Origin: Campylobacteraceae bacterium
Lineage (GTDB): Bacteria; Campylobacterota; Campylobacteria; Campylobacterales; Campylobacteraceae
Length of the DNA stretch: 56,476 bases
NCBI GenBank assembly: GCA_031270285.1
Contig: JAISXY010000104.1
Coordinates: 1-56,476 of the forward strand
Reading direction: 5' to 3'
Shown here: in pieces, positions 15,295 through 27,353 of the stretch
Layout: each line of letters starts with the position of its first letter
Position numbering within the stretch: the first letter of the stretch is position 1
Position numbers and translations under genes: made by a program
Notes under the pieces: generated by a model
What the model was told of the DNA's origin: nothing
Database searches by the model: none
The model's input: only the letters and a program-made list of their open reading frames with translations

Positions 15295-15590
15295 CATGAA
15301 CCGAAACAAGCCTTGTATTGAAACAATATAAAGGCAGTTTGGCAAACGGAACTTTTGCGGCCATGAACCGAAACAAGCCTTGTATTGAAACATGTGGGAA
15401 AAAAAGCTAACCCTAATATATCTGTAGACATGAACCGAAACAAGCCTTGTATTGAAACATTAAGTTTATGGTTAGGTTATTTAAGGCAGCTTATACATGA
15501 ACCGAAACAAGCCTTGTATTGAAACGTTCGTCCGGTACTCTTTATTATGTTAATAACACGCATGAACCGAAACAAGCCTTGTATTGAAAC

Positions 15591-15620
15591 TTTGTGCAAG
15601 GGGCACAAAGTCTTTTTTAT
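15591..15620 (+). terminator. Terminator-like spacer (spacer 5)
   Basis: Spacer 5 holds TTTGTGC-AAGGG-GCACAAA, extended by one pair using the last repeat base, followed by TCTTTTTTAT. This looks like an intrinsic terminator captured from a target, lying in the transcribed direction of the array. Confidence 0.5.
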
Positions 15621-16776
15621 AGATGCATGAACCGAAACAAGCCTTGTATTGAAACAAGAAGGGTTATTACAGTTATATTATAACGGCAATCATGAACCGA
15701 AACAAGCCTTGTATTGAAACCAGAGAATGCAAAAAAAGCGTTAAACAGGGAGTTTAACATGAACCGAAACAAGCCTTGTATTGAAACCTAAAACATACAC
15801 GATAAGAAGTCGCCTAAACGGCTCATGAACCGAAACAAGCCTTGTATTGAAACTTAAATATGGATATGCCTGAACTCTACTACCAAGAGCATGAACCGAA
15901 ACAAGCCTTGTATTGACACCGGAGGGCTTTTAATGCTTTTATTTGGTTTTATCGTAATCATGAACCGAAACAAGCCTTGTATTGAAACTTTTCTTGTTTA
16001 GCTATTTCCCTTTTGTACAGCATAACATGAACCGAAACAAGCCTTGTATTGAAACCAACAACATCTTCGCTGACGTTGTTTTCTTTACGGTCATGAACCG
16101 AAACAAGCCTTGTATTGAAACATATTTAGCAGAGTATATTAAAGAAGCACCAGAGGCATGAACCGAAACAAGCCTTGTATTGAAACTGCGTAATGCCCAG
16201 AGAGCCGCCACACCGCCAACCACATGAACCGAAACAAGCCTTGTATTGAAACTTGTTTTTTTGCTACTGCTCATTGTTTTCTCTTATGCATGAACCGAAA
16301 CAAGCCTTGTATTGAAACATTACCTTTCCAATTCGGGTCAAAGCCTAAAGCTTCATGAACCGAAACAAGCCTTGTATTGAAACTAAAATATAGTAAATAT
16401 CTTCTTTGTAAAGATATGTCATGAACCGAAACAAGCCTTGTATTGAAACTATCTAAACTCACCTTGTACTAACTGTCCTTGGTCATCATGAACCGAAACA
16501 AGCCTTGTATTGAAACTTGTCAATGTATTATTTGCAATCAATACAAATCGCATGAACCGAAACAAGCCTTGTATTGAAACTCTTAGATAAGGATAGCACT
16601 TTAGACTTGAGTACTGACATGAACCGAAACAAGCCTTGTATTGAAACCTACACTATCCTGCAGATTTTCATCTCTAAACCAACATGAACCGAAACAAGCC
16701 TTGTATTGAAACGATGATGACCCGAATGATTTTTCTGTCCCTGTTTCATGAACCGAAACAAGCCTTGTATTGAAAC

Positions 16777-16812
16777 TATTTTTTTTGATAATAATTATCA
16801 AGAAGGATTAAA
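16777..16812 (+). repeat. Spacer 23, reference copy of a four-member spacer family with Fur-box palindrome
   Basis: The spacer contains TGATAATAATTATCA (16786-16800), a perfect 7-1-7 Fur-type palindrome, then AAGGA six bases before the ATG inside the next repeat. Near-identical spacers occur at 17905-17940, 18764-18801 and 19425-19460, each with about two differences. Confidence 0.9.
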
Positions 16813-17904
16813 CATGAACCGAAACAAGCCTTGTATTGAAACGCTCGTAAGCAAACAAGCGCAAAAATAATATCTAAACCATGAACCGAAACAAGCCTTG
16901 TATTGAAACTATAAACATGGCAATACACAAGCAGACGAGGAAAACATGAACCGAAACAAGCCTTGTATTGAAACATTGAAAATATAAATTGGTATTTTGA
17001 GCACAGGTTAGCATGAACCGAAACAAGCCTTGTATTGAAACCTCCAGAAGATAACAAATTCTTAGCCCAGCCTATTACATGAACCGAAACAAGCCTTGTA
17101 TTGAAACCGCCCTTGATGGACGGTTACACCCTCTTTCGTTTAACATGAACCGAAACAAGCCTTGTATTGAAACCCTGCTTCAATTTGTTTTTTCATTCTT
17201 TTGCATCTGTCATGAACCGAAACAAGCCTTGTATTGAAACTGTTAGAGCTTTACAAAGATTTGATAGCTAAAAAAATCATGAACCGAAACAAGCCTTGTA
17301 TTGAAACTTAGTCCACCTTTTCATCTATAATTTTTTTAATCAGTCATGAACCGAAACAAGCCTTGTATTGAAACAAGTAAAAAATATCCGCCCGTGCCGC
17401 TTATGCTTAACATGAACCGAAACAAGCCTTGTATTGAAACACGCCCGCAAGGATTTCATCAAGTGTCATTTTTAACATGAACCGAAACAAGCCTTGTATT
17501 GAAACATAGTAATATCTATTGAGATATCTAAAAGAGGTGTTCATGAACCGAAACAAGCCTTGTATTGAAACTATTCAATATGGTTTTCAATACAAACGCC
17601 TGTATATCATGAACCGAAACAAGCCTTGTATTGAAACTTTGTCGCTTAAGGAAAGGGAAAAATGGGACGGCTTAACATGAACCGAAACAAGCCTTGTATT
17701 GAAACCTATTTGCTCGTAAAAGAATTTGAGGATTTAGGTTATCATGAACCGAAACAAGCCTTGTATTGAAACAATAACCTTCATCAAAAGTCGTTTTATG
17801 ACCAAAGCCATGAACCGAAACAAGCCTTGTATTGAAACATACACTTAAAAATAGCTTAAATTTTCAGCTTTTTTCATGAACCGAAACAAGCCTTGTATTG
17901 AAAC

Positions 17905-17940
17905 TATTTTTTTTGATAATAATTATCAAGTAAGATTAAA
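17905..17940 (+). repeat. Spacer 40, second member of the Fur-box spacer family
   Basis: It differs from spacer 23 at two of 36 positions, both in the ribosome-site-like part; the 15-base palindrome (17914-17928) is unchanged. Confidence 0.9.
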
Positions 17941-18763
17941 CATGAACCGAAACAAGCCTTGTATTGAAACTGAAAATTCTTAAAATTTTCTAAAACCTGA
18001 TTAGAAGACATGAACCGAAACAAGCCTTGTATTGAAACCTGATAACGATTTTTCGCAGTTTTTTCTTGAAAAGCCATGAACCGAAACAAGCCTTGTATTG
18101 AAACATCGTGAATACACGATCGGTTATAGGGTAGTAACACATAAACCGAAACAAGCCTTGTATTGAAACTTTTCAACAGCACTATACTTACAATTTAAAC
18201 GATTCCATGAACCGAAACAAGCCTTGTATTGAAACTTGATAACGATTTCGAGCAGTTTTTTCTTGAAATTTCATGAACCGAAACAAGCCTTGTATTGAAA
18301 CTAAAAATGTTTAACATCGCTTAACTGTACAGCAAGAGCATGAACCGAAACAAGCCTTGTATTGAAACAACATCAAACGAATTAGAATGATTTGAGCGAA
18401 AACCCATTTACCGAAACAAGCCTTGTATTGAAACCAAGCCCTACAAGCACGGCGGGCTGTGTCCAATTGGCATGAACCGAAACAAGCCTTGTATTGAAAC
18501 CAACATTACCCGCAACTTTTAAAGCAGAACCATATTCATGAACCGAAACAAGCCTTGTATTGAAACCTAATAACAGAAGACCACATTAGAACCTCCTTAA
18601 GCCACATGAACCGAAACAAGCCTTGTATTGAAACTACGTATTTTGCAAAATCTCAACGTCTCGAGTACCCATGAACCGAAACAAGCCTTGTATTGAAACC
18701 GGTTATTCTGTTCCCGCTAATTCTGCAAAAAAGCATGAACCGAAACAAGCCTTGTATTGAAAC

Positions 18764-18801
18764 TATTTTTTACGATAATAATTATCAAGAAGGATTAAAT
18801 C
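18764..18801 (+). repeat. Spacer 53, third member of the Fur-box spacer family
   Basis: It differs from spacer 23 at two positions before the palindrome (making its first base C instead of T) and is two bases longer at the right. Confidence 0.9.
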
Positions 18802-19424
18802 CATGAACCGAAACAAGCCTTGTATTGAAACATTATTACGCCTAACCCTACTATATACCTGACTCCGACATGAACCGAAACAAGCCTTGTATTGAAACGA
18901 CACGTTAGAAGGCAGAGCAGCATATTGGAAAAACATGAACCGAAACAAGCCTTGTATTGAAACCCCTGTATTATAACATAATATAGGAAAAAAAATGGAC
19001 ATGAACCGAAACAAGCCTTGTATTGAAACACGTTGTTGATGAATGGATTAAAAAAAGATACCGCTCATGAACCGAAACAAGCCTTGTATTGAAACACTTC
19101 AACCCCCTCGCCCAAAATGTTTCTGAAAATAGCATGAACCGAAACAAGCCTTGTATTGAAACACAGTTGCGTTATTTTTTTGAAAAAAGTTAAATAGCAT
19201 GAACCGAAACAAGCCTTGTATTGAAACTCTTCGTTCTACTTTCTATTTTCCTATTCTTATGAACATGAACCGAAACAAGCCTTGTATTGAAACTCACGCG
19301 CTTCTACACTTTGCACAAAACCTATAGGACATGAACCGAAACAAGCCTTGTATTGAAACTAAAGATTATCCTCGTCAATGTACGTTGTGTTATACATGAA
19401 CCGAAACAAGCCTTGTATTGAAAC

Positions 19425-19460
19425 TATTTTTTCTGATAATAATTATCAAGAAGAATTAAA
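19425..19460 (+). repeat. Spacer 63, fourth member of the Fur-box spacer family
   Basis: It differs from spacer 23 at two positions, one in the T-run and one in the ribosome-site-like part; the palindrome (19434-19448) is intact. Confidence 0.9.
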
Positions 19461-20385
19461 CATGAACCGAAACAAGCCTTGTATTGAAACGTTATAAGGT
19501 TGTAACAGAAACGTTACTTAATAGGTCATGAACCGAAACAAGCCTTGTATTGAAACTCCGAGACCTTTTTAAGCGTGCGCGACGCAAACTATTCATGAAC
19601 CGAAACAAGCCTTGTATTGAAACTGCAGGAATGGTGCGAAGAGATATTAAGAACGATAGACATGAACCGAAACAAGCCTTGTATTGAAACCTTGTAGCGT
19701 TTCCTATAGGTTTTGTGCAAAGTGCATGAACCGAAACAAGCCTTGTATTGAAACGCGGGCGTGATAACAGACATAAGGGAGTTTGCAGCCATGAACCGAA
19801 ACAAGCCTTGTATTGAAACGAAAACGCAGATATAAGAATCAGGATAAATAGTAATACATGAACCGAAACAAGCCTTGTATTGAAACTCTAACTCTCCATA
19901 ACATTCCAACAACTCTTTTTCACATGAACCGAAACAAGCCTTGTATTGAAACTGCTCGTGTCAAGAGATGTTTTTGCGTTCATAAGAGACATGAACCGAA
20001 ACAAGCCTTGTATTGAAACCGCAAAGCATTAAAGCAGAAGCGAGCAATGCAGAGCCATGAACCGAAACAAGCCTTGTATTGAAACAAACAAAAAAGATAA
20101 TAGCAGGCACGCTTGCGAGCCATGAACCGAAACAAGCCTTGTATTGAAACCGAAAATTCCTAAAATTTTCTAAAAACTGATTAGACATGAACCGAAACAA
20201 GCCTTGTATTGAAACCAAAAGTTACAATTCCAGCTGAAGACCTTCCTATTTGCATGAACCGAAACAAGCCTTGTATTGAAATTGTATCAATTGGGAACGG
20301 ATCACCTCCTGTTACTTCCATGAACCGAAACAAGCCTTGTATTGAAATAGGAAAAAGGGGAAGAAATAGAAGAAATTCTAAACAC

Positions 20386-20637
20386 ATGAACCGAAACAAG
20401 CCTTGTAACAAAGAATTTGAAACCACATATCCAAAAAAATTATTTTGTTCCCCAAAATGCCTTAAAATTTCTAAAAACAAAGAAAAAATTGTTAAAATAT
20501 GTAAAGTATGCGGCAAGGAATTTGAAACCATATATTCCAAAAAATTATGCTGTTCAGAAGAATGTACGGCAACAGCAAAAAAAACTTATTTGAAAAATAG
20601 AAAGAGGTTAAAGAATGCAAAAAAAAACGATAAATAA
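20386..20637 (+). pseudogene. Zinc-ribbon protein gene fused to the last CRISPR repeat
   Basis: The frame starts at the ATG inside the final, cut CRISPR repeat and reads MNRNKPC from it, then continues into KEFETTYPKKLFCSPKC and a second, complete module CKVCGKEFETIYSKKLCCSEEC with a basic tail. The second module is a CxxC...CxxC zinc ribbon like those of small phage proteins. In the first module the leading Cys is missing, since the repeat supplies NKPC where CxxC is expected. The simplest reading is that the 5' end of a phage-type gene was replaced by the array. Whether the 83 aa product is made is doubtful; the open frame also runs upstream through two more repeats by chance. Confidence 0.5.
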
Positions 20638-20650
20638 GAAGGATTTGATA

Positions 20651-20851
20651 ATGAAAAAAGCTTTTTTTAAAATCAAAATAAATCATTCCGAGCTCGCAAA
20701 AGAGCTCGGAGTTTCTGTTTATACTGTTTACGGATATAAAGCCACCTCTCCCAAAAAATTAGCTTTAATGTTAGATGGGATGAAATGGCGGAAATATGTT
20801 AAACAGCATATGCAAGAGGAGGCAGAAAATGCAAAAAAAGCCGGTAAATGA
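20651..20851 (+). CDS. Small helix-turn-helix protein of a mobile element
   Basis: A 66 aa protein whose residues from about 12 to 38 (HSELAKELGVSVYTVYGYKA) form a Cro-like helix-turn-helix. AAGGA precedes the ATG by seven bases. It overlaps the start of the recombinase gene, so the two are likely one transcript, probably with a regulatory or excision-control role. It resembles phage repressor-like proteins only in general terms. A 9-bp perfect hairpin (20687-20710) lies in the coding region. Confidence 0.65.
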   Translation: MKKAFFKIKINHSELAKELGVSVYTVYGYKATSPKKLALMLDGMKWRKYVKQHMQEEAENAKKAGK

Positions 20852-21377
20852 GAGAGAATTTAATTTACTTATCTCTGCCGCAAAACAAAACAAGAGCCTG
20901 CAGAAGAGTACAAGAGAGAAGCTTATTACCGCTTACACGCTGCTATATTATACTGCGTGCAGGGCGGATGAGATAAGGCTATTTTCTGCAAGCGACATTC
21001 AAACCCTTGCGCAAAAAGGGGAATTAACTCTTGCAAAAGAGCGCACCAAAACAAAACGAGCGAGGATTATACGCGTATCGGACAGGGGCAGAGAAGCGAT
21101 AAGTAACTTGCAGGTAAAAGAGCCGTTTGAGAGCGCAAAAGGCGGCGTAATAGGGGCGGCGGCATTCAAACGCCTGCTAAACACGCATATTCACGCCGTA
21201 CTTGGAGAACATTACAGTTCTCATAGTTTCAGGGCGGGTGCAGCCACAAGGCTATGCTCACAAGGGCTTATAAAAGCCGCACAGATACATCTCGGGCATC
21301 GTTCAGCGGCTACGACATTAATATATCAAAGATTATCGGAGGCAGAGTTTAAGCAAGCATTAGAGAGGGCGTACTGA
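20829..21377 (+). CDS. Minimal tyrosine recombinase (integrase)
   Basis: A 182 aa protein with the whole catalytic set of tyrosine recombinases: Arg45 (TACRADEIR), Lys near 74-76 (ERTKTKR), His132-x-x-Arg135 (HSFR), His157 (LGHRS) and nucleophile Tyr166 (TTLIYQ). It lacks the usual N-terminal core-binding domain of about 100 residues, so it is a catalytic-domain-only form. GAGGAGG precedes the ATG. It sits at the border between the CRISPR array and the phage-type genes and is the best candidate for having moved this block. Confidence 0.85.
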   Translation: MQKKPVNEREFNLLISAAKQNKSLQKSTREKLITAYTLLYYTACRADEIRLFSASDIQTLAQKGELTLAKERTKTKRARIIRVSDRGREAISNLQVKEPFESAKGGVIGAAAFKRLLNTHIHAVLGEHYSSHSFRAGAATRLCSQGLIKAAQIHLGHRSAATTLIYQRLSEAEFKQALERAY

Positions 21378-21382
21378 ACCCT

Positions 21383-24094
21383 CTAAAAATTATTAAGATT
21401 AAATTTTGAAGAGCGTTCATACCCTTTGTATTTTTCCAAGTCAAGTCTGTATTTGTTTCTTATTTTGTCTTTTTCCTGCCAAGTTTCAGCTTCTTTAATC
21501 TCCTTTTTTTGTTTATTCAAGATAGCGCTTACCTTCGCCGCAGCCTCTTTTTGTGCATTAAAATTTCTCACACCGAAAGCTCTCGCTGCTATCTCGCCAA
21601 CACCCATCTCTTCATCATAATAGTTCATCGGCGGGTTGATGCCGGTAACATATCCTACACTTTGCTGTGCGTACCTGCCAAGTGTTAAAGGGGGAAGATA
21701 ATTCTTTGCCATTTCCGTAGTGCGCTTAAAAATTCTTGTAGAAATGTCGTCATCTTCTTTTTCTATTTTATATCCCAGAGGACTTTTGCCGCCCGCGATA
21801 TTTATTAAACCGTTTAAAAATCCGCCCTGCAATTCAAATCCGTCAAATCCGTCAAATCGGAAAGCCGGCACAAGACGTCCTGCGTTAAAGTACCAGCCGT
21901 TGCTTACCTTAATCCAGCTATCTGCCCCGAAAGCATTAACATACCACTTGTTAGCCGCCCATTTAGGTTTATAAGCATTTTTTTTGTCATTGTCTCCGAA
22001 CCATGCAGAGCCTCCCGCCCCTACCAAAGCCGCTTGTAACACTGCAAACCTAAAAGGGTGTTTGGCTATTGTTTTTATAACCATTGGCGTGGAACGGTAA
22101 GTATAACCTAAAAAAGGCATTAAGCCTGTCTTATCAAGCATTCGCACAAAGGCAGGCAGCGGAGTGGCATAATTAACATAAGCCTCTTTTGCAGCCCTTG
22201 CGGCAACTTCATCGCTCACGCCCTGCCTTGTAAGCTTGTCAAAATGCGCTATCTTAAACAGTAAATCCTCCCAACCGTAAGCCTTACGCATAAAATCACC
22301 CGCCTTGCTTCCCTCAGCCATGTAAACATTTTTCAAAATAACGCTTGCAAGGCCGTCGCCTTTTTCAAGTTTTATATTTTTAAAATTATCCTCAAAGTCC
22401 CCGAGTTTGCTTACTATCCCTTGTGCGTGCGCTCTTTGTACAAGCGTATCAAAAGCCGCTTTATCCGTAGCACACAGTTTAATCGTTCTTGCTACGGCGC
22501 GCATATCGCCGTGTAAAAAACTTAAAAATAAGTTTGAACCGAAGTTATAAAGGTGTGTAGTGGGGTTTTTTACCGTAACATTGACCTTAATATGGTCCAT
22601 AATAGGATACAAAACATTCTCCAAAAAAGAGAGATTTTCTTTTAATATTTTTGCTCCTCTAATGGCATCCGAAATTTCGCGTGGGACATATTTACCGCCT
22701 AAAGCTCCGTATTTCATTATGCCGCCACCGATAGTCTCATCGCTCATTCTTACAGAGCCTTCAAACTCTGCATCCTTGCCGTAGCGGTCGGCAACCTGTT
22801 TCAAAAAGTTTGCTTTTACAAGTTGAACCCTCTGTTCTGCGATAGTATTAGGGACGACGATAGAGCTGTCCTCTATCATTTCAAGGGCTATTCTTTTATC
22901 GTAAGTTAAGTCCTTTCGCGCTTTGTATTTTTTGCTGAAATATGACGCTATAATTCCCTGCTTCTCTTCATAATGCTGCTTGTAATACCGTTTTAGATAG
23001 TCGTCAATTTTATATTTTTCCTTCAATGCACCCGCCTTGATAAGCGCTTCGGCATTATCGTCTATCATTTTTCTGATATTATTATATAAAGCTTCCAAAT
23101 GTTTGGGCAAATCGTTCGGGTCCATATCTCCGCCAAGAGCCTTATGAAGTGTTACTTTATCTTCAGGCGTCAAAAGCTTTTCAAGCGCTTCTCTCCTGTT
23201 TGCAGCCTGAGAGTATATCTGTCTTGTTGTATTTCTGAAATTTTCAACCATTTCCCCGATTTCTTCAAAAGTCTTGGGAAGGGTTACAAAACTATCCCCG
23301 AATGCTTTTCTTAAAGCACCTTTCGTGGGTTTTTGAGCAGCATTCATTACTGCTTTGTCTGCCTTGTGCAGTATTTTGCCAAACTTATTAAAAAAACTAT
23401 CAACTTGATTTTGCCACAATGATTGTGGTATAATATCATTCACAGGAGCGTTTCGGACGTTAAGAAGCTGGAGGGGCAAGTTTTTACTTGTTGCATCAAG
23501 CGCCTGTGTTTTAACATCTATCCAGTTCAGCGCATTACCTTTATAAGCTTTCCAATCTTCAGATGTTACTTTTGCTTTAAACATTGTTTTAGGAGCAAGA
23601 GAAGGTATTTTGCTGTTTTTGGCACGACTTCTTACCTCTTCAACAATATAAACAGTTTCATCATAGCGTTTTAGATATGCTATAGCATTTAATCCTTGCT
23701 TGGTTTTTGTCTGCGCTATCTTGTCGGGATTAGTTACAATATCCTCATATTTTAGCATATCATTTTCAGTAATGGGTCTATGGTCGTTTGGGTTTTTCAT
23801 ATGCTCATCTCTGATATGAATAAAACCATCTCTTGTTATTATTCTTGTAAACCCCCTAATATTAAATCCGAAGTTTTTTGCTACTATATCAGCAAAACTA
23901 TCATCAATTTTTCCTATTTCAATAACAGGTTCTACTTCATTAAGAGGTTTATTTATAACTTTGTTAAAAAAATCCCTTATCCTCTCCCCATTCTTTGTTT
24001 TCGGTAGAGGCTGTGGTTCTAAATTATCTCCCAGATTATCTAGTACTTGCTGGCTTTTTATTAAAGCTTTTTTACCGAAGCATTTTATTTTCAT
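21383..24094 (-). CDS. Large phage-type protein with N-terminal nuclease-like domain
   Basis: A roughly 903 aa protein. Residues about 60-180 resemble the phage Barnase-EndoU-ColicinE5/D-RelE-like nuclease family: DGFIHIRDEH (His95, His100), an ENDMLKYEDIVTNPDKI helix and a C-terminal strand region ending SLAPKTMFK. The middle is helical; residues about 470-760 (KYVPREISDAIRG, NPTTHLYNFGSN, LPAFVRMLDKTGLMPFLGYTYRSTP) look like the large polyvalent protein domains found in phage proteins carried with the DNA. The start overlaps the 931 aa gene end; the ATG at 24094 fits its GAGGAG better than 24100. Probably a virion-delivered effector; function is inference. Confidence 0.6.
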   Translation of the reverse strand: MKIKCFGKKALIKSQQVLDNLGDNLEPQPLPKTKNGERIRDFFNKVINKPLNEVEPVIEIGKIDDSFADIVAKNFGFNIRGFTRIITRDGFIHIRDEHMKNPNDHRPITENDMLKYEDIVTNPDKIAQTKTKQGLNAIAYLKRYDETVYIVEEVRSRAKNSKIPSLAPKTMFKAKVTSEDWKAYKGNALNWIDVKTQALDATSKNLPLQLLNVRNAPVNDIIPQSLWQNQVDSFFNKFGKILHKADKAVMNAAQKPTKGALRKAFGDSFVTLPKTFEEIGEMVENFRNTTRQIYSQAANRREALEKLLTPEDKVTLHKALGGDMDPNDLPKHLEALYNNIRKMIDDNAEALIKAGALKEKYKIDDYLKRYYKQHYEEKQGIIASYFSKKYKARKDLTYDKRIALEMIEDSSIVVPNTIAEQRVQLVKANFLKQVADRYGKDAEFEGSVRMSDETIGGGIMKYGALGGKYVPREISDAIRGAKILKENLSFLENVLYPIMDHIKVNVTVKNPTTHLYNFGSNLFLSFLHGDMRAVARTIKLCATDKAAFDTLVQRAHAQGIVSKLGDFEDNFKNIKLEKGDGLASVILKNVYMAEGSKAGDFMRKAYGWEDLLFKIAHFDKLTRQGVSDEVAARAAKEAYVNYATPLPAFVRMLDKTGLMPFLGYTYRSTPMVIKTIAKHPFRFAVLQAALVGAGGSAWFGDNDKKNAYKPKWAANKWYVNAFGADSWIKVSNGWYFNAGRLVPAFRFDGFDGFELQGGFLNGLINIAGGKSPLGYKIEKEDDDISTRIFKRTTEMAKNYLPPLTLGRYAQQSVGYVTGINPPMNYYDEEMGVGEIAARAFGVRNFNAQKEAAAKVSAILNKQKKEIKEAETWQEKDKIRNKYRLDLEKYKGYERSSKFNLNNF
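21389..21407. repeat. 19-bp direct repeat, left copy
   Basis: ATTATTAAGATTAAATTTT occurs here and at 27027-27045. Both copies are coding on the minus strand in the same frame and read KFNLNN. This copy is 12 bases after the recombinase stop codon. Confidence 0.7.
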
Positions 24095-26889
24095 CAGCAT
24101 AACTCCTCAAACTCGGTTATTGTCTCACCTTTTTCATTCACTCGTGTGTCCTCAAATTCCTTAAGCTTCGCTCTCGCACTGTCAAGTTCGGCTTGAGCAT
24201 TTTTAACATTCTCTTTGTATGCCGAGAGTTTCTTCTCGTTTTCGTTAAGCGCTGTTTTAAGCTTTTTAAGTTTGTCAGACTCTTTTTTGGGCAAATGTTC
24301 TATTCTATATTTATTGCCTTCAATATCACTCTCTTTATAATTAATATCTTTGTTTGCCTCTTCAAGTCTTTCTTCGGCAATCTTTATCTCTTTTTCTATT
24401 CTTTCTCGTTCTATTTGGTTTTTAAGCTCTGACTTCTTAACAGGGTCTTTCTCCGCTTTTATAGCCATATCTTCAAGCTTTGATAAAAAGTCCTCTGTTT
24501 TTGCTTCGGGCTTGTCTGCCGGATACAGCTCGTCTATCCAACTCTTCGTTTCGGGGTTGGGCTCGGCGCTGTTAAGTTCTTGCTTTCTTTGTTCTATAAT
24601 GCTTGCGTACTTGTCATAAGTTGCCCTGTCTATATTTTGCAGGGCGCGTTTGGCTCTCTCTTCTGCACTGCTGTCAACTGCGCCGCGTCCCGCTTCAAGT
24701 CCGCTTTTAGGGTCGTAAATGACTATCTCATCACCCTCTTTAACTCTTGCAAAGTCAAATTTATTGCTCTTATCCGTAATGATTGTCGCTCTTCTGCCGT
24801 TGATTGTTTTACCGTCAACGCCTGTAAAAGTTACTTCATTTGGGTTGCCACCTGCCTTTATTATGGCATAGTTGTCAAGGATTTTTTTAACTGTTTCATC
24901 ATATTTTTTTCTTCCGAACTTCTCAAGTATGGTTTTTAACTCTTCAAGCGTTGATTTTTTTGTTTTAAAATTATTCGTTATACGAAACCCAGTTGCTATA
25001 TCCTCCGCTTGCCAATATCCGCTCTCGTCCTTTCTAACGGCAAAATCAATATCCTCAAAATCTTTAGCGGTTGTTTTTACACGCTCGCCTATCTTTTTTT
25101 CAAACGTAAAACTCTCCATAGGGAGATACTCATACTCCACCTCTTTTTTTTTAAGTGTAGTTTCTGTCTCCACCAGTGGAGTTTCGGCTTCCTGAGTTGT
25201 TTCGGTTTTTGCAACAACTGGTTCATCAGCCTTTGGAGTTGTCTCCTCTGCCTTTACTTTTTCTTTTTGTTGTGTCTTTTTTGCTTCGGGAGCTGTTTTT
25301 GATTGTTTATTGAGCGGTCCTAAATCCATTTTAGCGGCAGCATCGTCCGCTCCCTTTTCTACTATTTTTTTATAAATATAGTCTTTGGCTATATTTATAT
25401 CTTTATTTCCGTAACTCTGCGTAAAAACACCCGCGCTTTCGTCATTAAAGCCAAGCTCACGAAGCCTCTCAAAAAGCTGGTCTGGAGTGCGCATGCCGTT
25501 TTGTATCTCATTTTCAAGCATTGGGATTATTTTTACTCCGGTTGCTCGCGGGTTTACTTCTATCCCATCATTAATCCACTGACTTAACCGTATCATTTCG
25601 GGAGTCGGCTTATTGTTTACGCTCACAAGTTGGTTTATCTGCTCCATGCTAAATTTTGGGAACTTGTTCATGTATTGCTGTACAAGTTCTACGTCTTTTG
25701 TGTAAGCGTTGATGGAGTTTTCTTCAGCGGTAACGATAGTGGCTCTTGTTTGTGCGAGTTCATCGCCAAGCGTGCGCAAAGTCTTAATGGTTTCAACGCT
25801 TAGCGTGTACTCTTTAAGTGCGGCATATGTCTCATCGTCAAGCACAGAACTCTTCTCTACACCGCTCTCAATCTCATTCAGCACAGCAAGCGTTGAGCGT
25901 GTATCATATCCTTCCATAAAAGTATTAACCGCCGTTTTCGTATCTATATTTTCCATATTCGTAAACAATGGGTCGTTTTCTGAAATATCTTGAAGTATTT
26001 TTTGTCTCTCTTCGGGAGTTTTGGCATTAAGAATCCTACCGAGAAGTGCGTCTTGTTGTTCAGGGCTATAACCTATATTGGCAGAAAGCTTCGCTATTTT
26101 TCCTAAAATCTCCTCTTTTTGTTCGGGCGCAGCGCTCTCAAGCTGTTTTTTTAATGAGTTTACCTTAAGTTTGTATGCGCCGTAAAACGCTCCGAAAAAC
26201 AACTCTCCGAACGCCGCTCCTCCCACGCCGCTTACGGCGCTATTCTTTAAAACATCTATCCCCTTATCGTCCATAGATAAAGAGTAAGCTCCTCCCGAAA
26301 TCGCTCCGCCCAAAAAGTTCAGTCCGACTCGCTTGAGTATGCCGACAGAACCGCCGCCGACAACATTAAGGGGGTCAACCATACTGCCCGCAAACTCGGC
26401 GCCCGTTGCAGCCCACGGCATCTTGCCTGTTGTTTGCTTCCATAATGCCTCTTCGGCTCTATGTGCCTGCTGATAATCATAAAGCCCTTTTGATGCGTCA
26501 GAGGCATTTTCTATAGAAAACGGATGTGTACCGGGCGCTATTCCGGATTTTCTGTAAATTTCAGCCGCTTCCTCTTTCGTCGGTTTAAGCCTTCCTTGTT
26601 TAAGGGCGTTGGCGTAAAATTCTTTGGTAAACCTGCCACTGTTATATACTCCATCCACAAGCCTGTTTATCCAAAGCGGAGCTGATGTTATCCCCGCGCC
26701 AAAGCCTCTTTGAAGCCGCCCTGTAAATGTATCAAAGTCGCTTATGTTCTTTGGATTGTATTTTGGGTTTTTTTGGAGGGCATATTGCTGCTGTGCATAG
26801 TCAGCAATCTCTTCTTCGCTTGCTCCCTGTTCAAGGAGAGTGTTTATCACATCATCACCCAAAAAAGTTCGAGGAGTAAAGTCTGCCAT
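24094..26889 (-). CDS. Large phage-type structural or delivered protein
   Basis: A 931 aa protein. The N-terminus (MADFTPRTFLGDDVINTLLEQGASEEEIADYAQQQ) and a following glycine-rich membrane-active segment (about residues 170-245, GGGSVGILKRVGLNFLGG...GAAFGELFFGAFYG) are typical of long phage proteins injected with DNA. The middle has helices; residues about 555-600 are a Glu/Lys/Thr-rich linker; a small alpha-beta domain follows (DFAVRKDESGYWQAEDIATGFRIT), and the C-terminal 120 residues form coiled coil. No enzymatic motif was recognised. It is coupled by overlap to the genes on both sides, so all three act together. Confidence 0.55.
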   Translation of the reverse strand: MADFTPRTFLGDDVINTLLEQGASEEEIADYAQQQYALQKNPKYNPKNISDFDTFTGRLQRGFGAGITSAPLWINRLVDGVYNSGRFTKEFYANALKQGRLKPTKEEAAEIYRKSGIAPGTHPFSIENASDASKGLYDYQQAHRAEEALWKQTTGKMPWAATGAEFAGSMVDPLNVVGGGSVGILKRVGLNFLGGAISGGAYSLSMDDKGIDVLKNSAVSGVGGAAFGELFFGAFYGAYKLKVNSLKKQLESAAPEQKEEILGKIAKLSANIGYSPEQQDALLGRILNAKTPEERQKILQDISENDPLFTNMENIDTKTAVNTFMEGYDTRSTLAVLNEIESGVEKSSVLDDETYAALKEYTLSVETIKTLRTLGDELAQTRATIVTAEENSINAYTKDVELVQQYMNKFPKFSMEQINQLVSVNNKPTPEMIRLSQWINDGIEVNPRATGVKIIPMLENEIQNGMRTPDQLFERLRELGFNDESAGVFTQSYGNKDINIAKDYIYKKIVEKGADDAAAKMDLGPLNKQSKTAPEAKKTQQKEKVKAEETTPKADEPVVAKTETTQEAETPLVETETTLKKKEVEYEYLPMESFTFEKKIGERVKTTAKDFEDIDFAVRKDESGYWQAEDIATGFRITNNFKTKKSTLEELKTILEKFGRKKYDETVKKILDNYAIIKAGGNPNEVTFTGVDGKTINGRRATIITDKSNKFDFARVKEGDEIVIYDPKSGLEAGRGAVDSSAEERAKRALQNIDRATYDKYASIIEQRKQELNSAEPNPETKSWIDELYPADKPEAKTEDFLSKLEDMAIKAEKDPVKKSELKNQIERERIEKEIKIAEERLEEANKDINYKESDIEGNKYRIEHLPKKESDKLKKLKTALNENEKKLSAYKENVKNAQAELDSARAKLKEFEDTRVNEKGETITEFEELC

Positions 26890-27242
26890 TATCTGTCCTT
26901 AAGTTGCTTGTCAAGCGGCGATGCCGACGAAGCACCGCTCTTGTTTTTATTTATGGAGTTATATACTTGTTTAAGACTGTAAGCAGAGGGCAATGCAAAA
27001 GGTGGAATAAGAAACGCTTTTGCTGCATTATTAAGATTAAATTTTATGTTGGTGTTTTCCCTGCTCGTATCTTTTTCTTGTACTTTATATATTTTGCTAT
27101 CGTTTTCCTTGTAAACGGGGTTTACGGAATAATATATAACATTGTCTTTTATATGCGGGATAAGAAAATCATCTTTTAAATTAAGCTGTTTCAAAATGGC
27201 CGGATTAATATACTTTTTGCCGTTACTGCTCTCATAAAACAT
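26889..27242 (-). CDS. Small protein leading the phage-type three-gene unit
   Basis: A 117 aa protein not recognised from any family. It begins MFYESSNGKKYINPAILKQLNLKDDFLIPHIKDNVIYY, has a short hydrophobic stretch near residue 80 (AFLIPPFALPSAY) and a charged C-terminus. Its stop overlaps the start of the 931 aa gene (TAATG), so it is the first gene of that transcript. The peptide KFNLNN in it is repeated, at DNA level too, at the C-terminus of the 905 aa protein. Confidence 0.5.
   Translation of the reverse strand: MFYESSNGKKYINPAILKQLNLKDDFLIPHIKDNVIYYSVNPVYKENDSKIYKVQEKDTSRENTNIKFNLNNAAKAFLIPPFALPSAYSLKQVYNSINKNKSGASSASPLDKQLKDR
27027..27045. repeat. 19-bp direct repeat, right copy
   Basis: Exact copy of the 19 bases at 21389-21407, 5.6 kb away in the same orientation, bracketing the two giant genes. 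Confidence 0.7.
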
Positions 27243-27323
27243 TTTTTTAAATCTTCAAAGACTGTCTAATATTTTTATATCCGCTTCAGTCGTTTTTATG
27301 ATCGAATAACCGCCGTTTTCTTG

Positions 27324-27353
27324 CATGAACCAAAACAAGCGTTGCGCTGAAAT
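27324..27353 (+). repeat. Orphan degenerate CRISPR repeat
   Basis: Thirty bases beginning CATGAACC and continuing AAAACAAGC match the array repeat at 24 of 30 positions, in the same orientation. It lies 6.9 kb right of the array, immediately beyond the phage-type block. Chance similarity at this level is very unlikely. No second repeat is seen beside it. The remaining 216-base gap up to the LRR gene holds nothing else recognisable. Confidence 0.75.

Follow-up and report, generated by a model that had tools for sequence, protein, structure and literature searches.

Why does one CRISPR array hold four almost identical spacers that resemble an iron-regulated promoter ending in a ribosome site? 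They lie in a 56,476-nucleotide stretch of DNA from a Campylobacteraceae bacterium, analysed as a whole and called the window below. An earlier note on this DNA had offered two origins: repeated capture of one mobile element's Fur-controlled promoter from diverging relatives, or a selected function in which Fur or a similar protein binds the array.

The array and its four near-identical spacers

The array spans 15295..20414 on the + strand, with 78 repeats of 30 nt (CATGAACCGAAACAAGCCTTGTATTGAAAC) and 77 spacers of 34-39 nt; near-identical repeats, unique spacers and constant length identify it as a CRISPR array. Nearly all repeats begin with C-ATG, which places an ATG after almost every spacer. 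Towards its right end the array degenerates, with GAAAT repeats and a final repeat truncated at ~20406, which suggests that the leader and the newest spacers are on the left and that spacer 63 is probably the oldest of the four copies. A search for self-targeting found no spacer matching the rest of the window, contig C67 of the assembly or the fetched part of contig C32.

A phage-like remnant (20407-27300) breaks the last repeat, and at the break a zinc-finger-like ORF has become fused with repeat sequence (MNRNKPC). The remnant encodes a tyrosine recombinase (20796-21377) as well as a protein of 905 aa that has a PBECR3 nuclease-like domain. The repeat of the array is found also at 27324-27353, at G000 C10:453 and in contigs C45, C54, C77, C84, C112 and C130 of genome G007 (L185-L190). 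These off-array repeats, single or in 2-5 copies, are dispersed in the genomes of this genus like mini-arrays, and off-site spacer integration is a possible origin.

Ten ORFs close to the array were scanned with Pfam and revealed no cas gene, and a Sulfurospirillum Cas3 query for type I cas3 has no match in the assembly, which is ~91% complete, so that the array's own cas genes may be missing. The nearest array in BLAST is a type I-B array of the Sulfurospirillum plasmid pSulSP. Its repeat is similar, but in pSulSP cas3-cas4-cas1b-cas2 adjoin, whereas the assembly studied here has neither a type I cas3 match nor a second cas1; the cas genes that would assign the array to subtype I-B do not accompany it in this incomplete assembly. 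The pSulSP match and the gene content would by themselves make Campylobacterota the probable group of the host. The sole cas1 belongs to a type V-A (Cas12a) locus on contig C32, whose own array has different repeats. That locus (G000 contig C32, L177:6000-17497) has two tandem divergent Cas12a genes, coding for a canonical protein of 1219 aa and a divergent one of 1147 aa, together with cas4, cas1, cas2 and a single array in which two repeat variants occur (7-8 copies of one, 29 of the other). The two effectors and two repeat types deserve separate study.

The four similar spacers, named family A here, are listed with their reading and its score against a profile of the microvirus protein VP1:

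Spacer 23, 16777..16812, + strand: TATTTTTTTTGATAATAATTATCAAGAAGGATTAAA; I F F D N N Y Q E G L; 16.6 bits
Spacer 40, 17905..17940, + strand: I F F D N N Y Q V R L; 10.7 bits, p 0.14
Spacer 53, 18764..18801, + strand: 38 nt with an extra TC; I F Y D N N Y Q E G L N; 20.2 bits
Spacer 63, 19425..19460, + strand: I F S D N N Y Q E E L; 13.9 bits, p 0.011

The earlier description of one sequence present four times with about two differences each is exact in position, and spacers 40, 53 and 63 have two differences each from spacer 23. Lengths are 36, 36, 38 and 36 nt. All copies share their strand and the left end TATTTTT, no other spacers having a first 7-mer in common, and vary at five sites (9, 10, 27, 29 and 30). 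Their pairwise scores of 28-32, against a maximum of ~15 for unrelated spacer pairs, put the similarity far above chance. The neighbours of the four copies are unrelated to one another, which makes duplication of a block unlikely, as had been argued. The palindrome TGATAATAATTATCA is exact in spacers 23, 40 and 63, and spacer 53 has CGATAATAATTATCA, with C at the first base, again as described. The ribosome-like end fared less well: AAGGATTAAA is limited to spacers 23 and 53, spacer 40 having GTAAGATTAAA and spacer 63 GAAGAATTAAA, so that AAGGA is lost from two of the four copies and the 'ribosome site' is not conserved; the ATG said to follow it is real but a general property of the repeats.

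Microvirus spacers and repeated captures in the array

When the whole array was compared with phages by BLAST, Microviridae alone were returned, via spacer 21. Microvirus genomes were collected, and all spacers were scanned in six frames with VP1-VP5 protein profiles against shuffled controls. Five spacers outside family A emerged, listed with their z in a DNA-level codon profile:

Spacer 21, 16648..16682, - strand: Gokushovirinae VP1 (WFRDENLQDSV), 97% over 33 nt to the PQ006345 capsid gene; z 17
Spacer 38, 17773..17808, - strand: microvirus VP1 N-terminal motif (FGHKTTFDEGY); z 14
Spacer 42, 18039..18074, - strand: microvirus VP2 (AFQEKTAKNRYQ); z 10.6
Spacer 45, 18236..18271, - strand: the VP2 site of spacer 42 in a diverged virus (KFQEKTARNRYQ); z 8.7
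Spacer 47, 18369..18404, - strand: probable VP1 C-terminal motif (FRSNHSNSFDV); z 4.2

The microvirus matches of spacers 21 and 38 (VP1) and 42 and 45 (VP2) are unambiguous, that of spacer 47 is probable, and the DNA-level codon profile agrees with the protein profile for all five; the four unambiguous spacers exceed their shuffled controls by far in either profile. A PHROGs scan gave weak unnamed matches for spacers 21 and 38 (E ~0.3) and none for 42 and 45, being too insensitive. VP1 was not found as a prophage in the family genomes, and VP2 and VP1 motif patterns used for the host's own virus lineage retrieved general microviruses only. The CRISPR evidence ties this host to Microviridae; a literature search on gokushovirus, Campylobacter and CRISPR found a single passing co-mention.

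Spacers 42 and 45 are in the same register and differ by two synonymous and two amino-acid changes, a clear repeated capture of one VP2 site from two diverged viruses. This pair had been missed earlier, together with two others. Another repeated capture is seen in spacers 41 and 74 (17971-18008 and 20151-20185), which share a register and show three differences. Spacers 61 and 67 (19294-19329 and 19691-19724), which overlap by ~23 nt on opposite strands, are two captures from one locus.

Family A as a possible VP1 protospacer

Family A has a single forward frame that stays open in each of its four copies; in its commonest form it reads I-F-(F/Y/S)-D-N-N-Y-Q-E-G-L-(N). Of the five microvirus proteins, VP1 fits this frame best, with the top profile match at columns 375-386, VRADLTYQQGLN, where the conserved motif is (V/I)-R-A-D-L-(T/N)-Y-Q-Q-G-L-N. 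The score of spacer 53 (20.2 bits) was reached by 1 of 5363 of its own shuffles (Gumbel p 9e-4) and by none of 3080 pooled shuffles. Per spacer, the peptide fit has an uncorrected p of ~2e-4 to 1e-3 (1 in 5,000 to 1 in 1,000), which becomes about 0.02-0.07 after allowing for the 77 spacers. With the DNA profile, 22 of 4000 shuffles scored as high as spacer 53 (p 0.0055), 76 as high as spacer 23 and 83 as high as spacer 63; spacer 40, taken by itself, gives no VP1 signal. Across 83 microviruses the VP1 site usually ranks first or second among the matching places for spacers 23, 53 and 63 (median rank 2) and has a median rank of 11 for spacer 40, a ranking that is not independent because the site was picked from the protein scan. 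With its two extra bases, spacer 53 reads on as VP1 does (AAT C for N-R). Microviruses vary at this site, the lowest-scoring real VP1s having 19-21 bits and divergent viruses showing IRQYHTYQQGIE, INRHSYSEGVN and similar sequences.

Several observations weigh against VP1. A-D-L is almost invariant in known gokushoviruses, where family A has (F/Y/S)-D-N, and F-(F/Y)-D-x-N-Y-Q-(E/Q/K)-G occurs at the VP1 site of no IMG/VR microvirus. The normally conserved G is altered in spacers 40 and 63, and family A lies on the sense strand whereas the clear microvirus spacers are antisense. The best DNA identity at this site in the collected genomes is 25 of 36-38 nt, with no near-exact VP1 gene match among them. 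The resemblance, judged from sequence, is thus suggestive and not proven, and we consider a family A protospacer in VP1 somewhat probable.

The regulatory look of the spacers could follow from such a coding stretch. VP1 codons GAT nnn AAT TAT CAA nAA GGn TTA AA yield most of the 'Fur box' and the 'ribosome site', and where the motif D-x-N-Y-Q-x-G-L is written in AT-rich form, GAT nnn AAT TAT CAA nnn GGn TTA, the palindrome needs a change of one residue, L to N. A search for Fur-like palindromes in microviruses found none equal to the exact box, and the one most like family A is in VP1 of microvirus L065. Near-versions of the box plus ribosome site do occur in real VP1 genes, that of L065 (TGATTTAAATTATCAGCAAGGTTTAAA) being an example.

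Family A DNA patterns, exact and degenerate, were run on viral contigs, genome contigs, 60 relatives and 153 family genomes. Neither an exact nor a near-exact protospacer turned up in viral contigs, phages, plasmids, the 153 family genomes or the 60 relatives. Pattern matches in genome contigs (Clostridium, Firmicutes, Saprospiraceae) fell in unrelated places. Single-spacer BLAST, with spacers 53 and 42 against phages and 23 against plasmids, returned chance-level matches only, and tblastn with the frame of spacer 53 and the PHROGs scan, both too insensitive, gave nothing for family A. The search of phage, plasmid and host genomes that the earlier note had proposed thus provided no promoter target, and its best candidate is the coding sequence of VP1.

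We favour the hypothesis, with a probability of roughly 0.6, that family A records four separate acquisitions of one protospacer, most likely in VP1, from variants within a single lineage of small ssDNA phages (Microviridae), received by an array that also stores several other microvirus spacers. The VP1 stretch would read (I/V)-F-x-D-N-N-Y-Q-E-G-L-N, the counterpart of VRADL(T/N)YQQGLN, and the Fur-like palindrome and Shine-Dalgarno-like end would be by-products of GAT AAT AAT TAT CAA GAA GGA TTA AAT. The phage would infect this host, and the site would be re-acquired as variants arise. Repeated independent capture from a mobile element, taken alone, is very probable, being supported by the same end and strand, the isolated substitutions, the unrelated neighbours, the extra bases of spacer 53 and the double capture seen in spacers 42 and 45. 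Capture from diverging relatives, as first proposed, is therefore retained, whereas an iron-regulated promoter as its source is disfavoured by the searches, by the loss of AAGGA from two copies and by the protein-coding nature of the best target.

Fur, other sources and known re-acquisition

The motif is of genuine Fur type, as had been recognised: three copies of family A match the 7-1-7 Fur box (TGATAATNATTATCA) exactly and the fourth has one mismatch. Fur-family genes number three in the genome, which has 52 Fur-type sites with <=2 mismatches, against 9 in the reversed control. TGATAATAATTATCA occurs exactly at four sites of the assembly, three in this array and one on contig C67, where it precedes a TonB-dependent-receptor-like gene (named by reading its sequence, not by profile search). 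Judging from these genes and sites, Fur could physically bind the family A spacers. A conserved binding site may exist in the family, since none of the substitutions is synonymous and the 16-nt palindromic core is free of them. A true Fur-controlled promoter and its ribosome site, captured repeatedly from a phage, plasmid or integrative element, would account for the perfect palindrome in three copies, for an invariant core with all five variable sites in the flanks and for the same 15-mer before the receptor-like gene in a genome with Fur-family genes. Such a source is nevertheless unlikely: plasmids, phages, viral contigs and 153 related genomes contain no such promoter, half of the copies have no AAGGA, and the identifiable spacers of the array match microvirus coding genes rather than iron-uptake elements. 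The family A versions of the box, lying inside spacers, are probably codons.

The captured coding stretch could instead belong to a phage protein other than VP1, which the forward frame open in four of four copies and the modest VP1 score would allow. One viral contig encodes a nucleotidyltransferase-like protein that contains FFDHNYQEGN, a likeness mostly imposed by the search pattern. This source too is doubtful, with no specific match, VP1 the best of five microvirus proteins and an array that demonstrably targets VP1 and VP2. A single capture, copied by recombination inside the array and mutated afterwards, would agree with the near-identity of the sequences, and arrays do recombine; we give it very little credit, as the copies are 10-17 spacers apart among unrelated neighbours, spacer 53 extends two bases past the shared end, and the intervening repeats are nearly perfect though the spacers differ. 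A selected role, in which Fur would bind retained phage-derived operator spacers, tie crRNA production to iron or be titrated by the array as a decoy, is most improbable even though only one of the four exact TGATAATAATTATCA sites of the assembly lies outside the array, for the three sites inside it are scattered and not at the leader, show no conservation in the relatives searched (60 relatives, 153 family genomes) and lie in spacers foreign by nature, with no positive evidence found beyond the motif itself.

Repeated capture of a microvirus site thus appears as an ordinary event whose product would illustrate that coding sequence taken up as spacers can mimic regulatory sites. The four variants of one site and the three other repeat-capture families form a small fossil record of how a host sampled an evolving tiny phage. 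When one protospacer is acquired again and again from phages that evolve, same-site spacer variants are known to result, through naive or primed adaptation. Family A likewise displays the same register and strand, few substitutions and separate array positions; it differs from the known cases in that its protospacer was not found, and in that four variants stand in one array and come from one site rather than from a spread of neighbouring ones.
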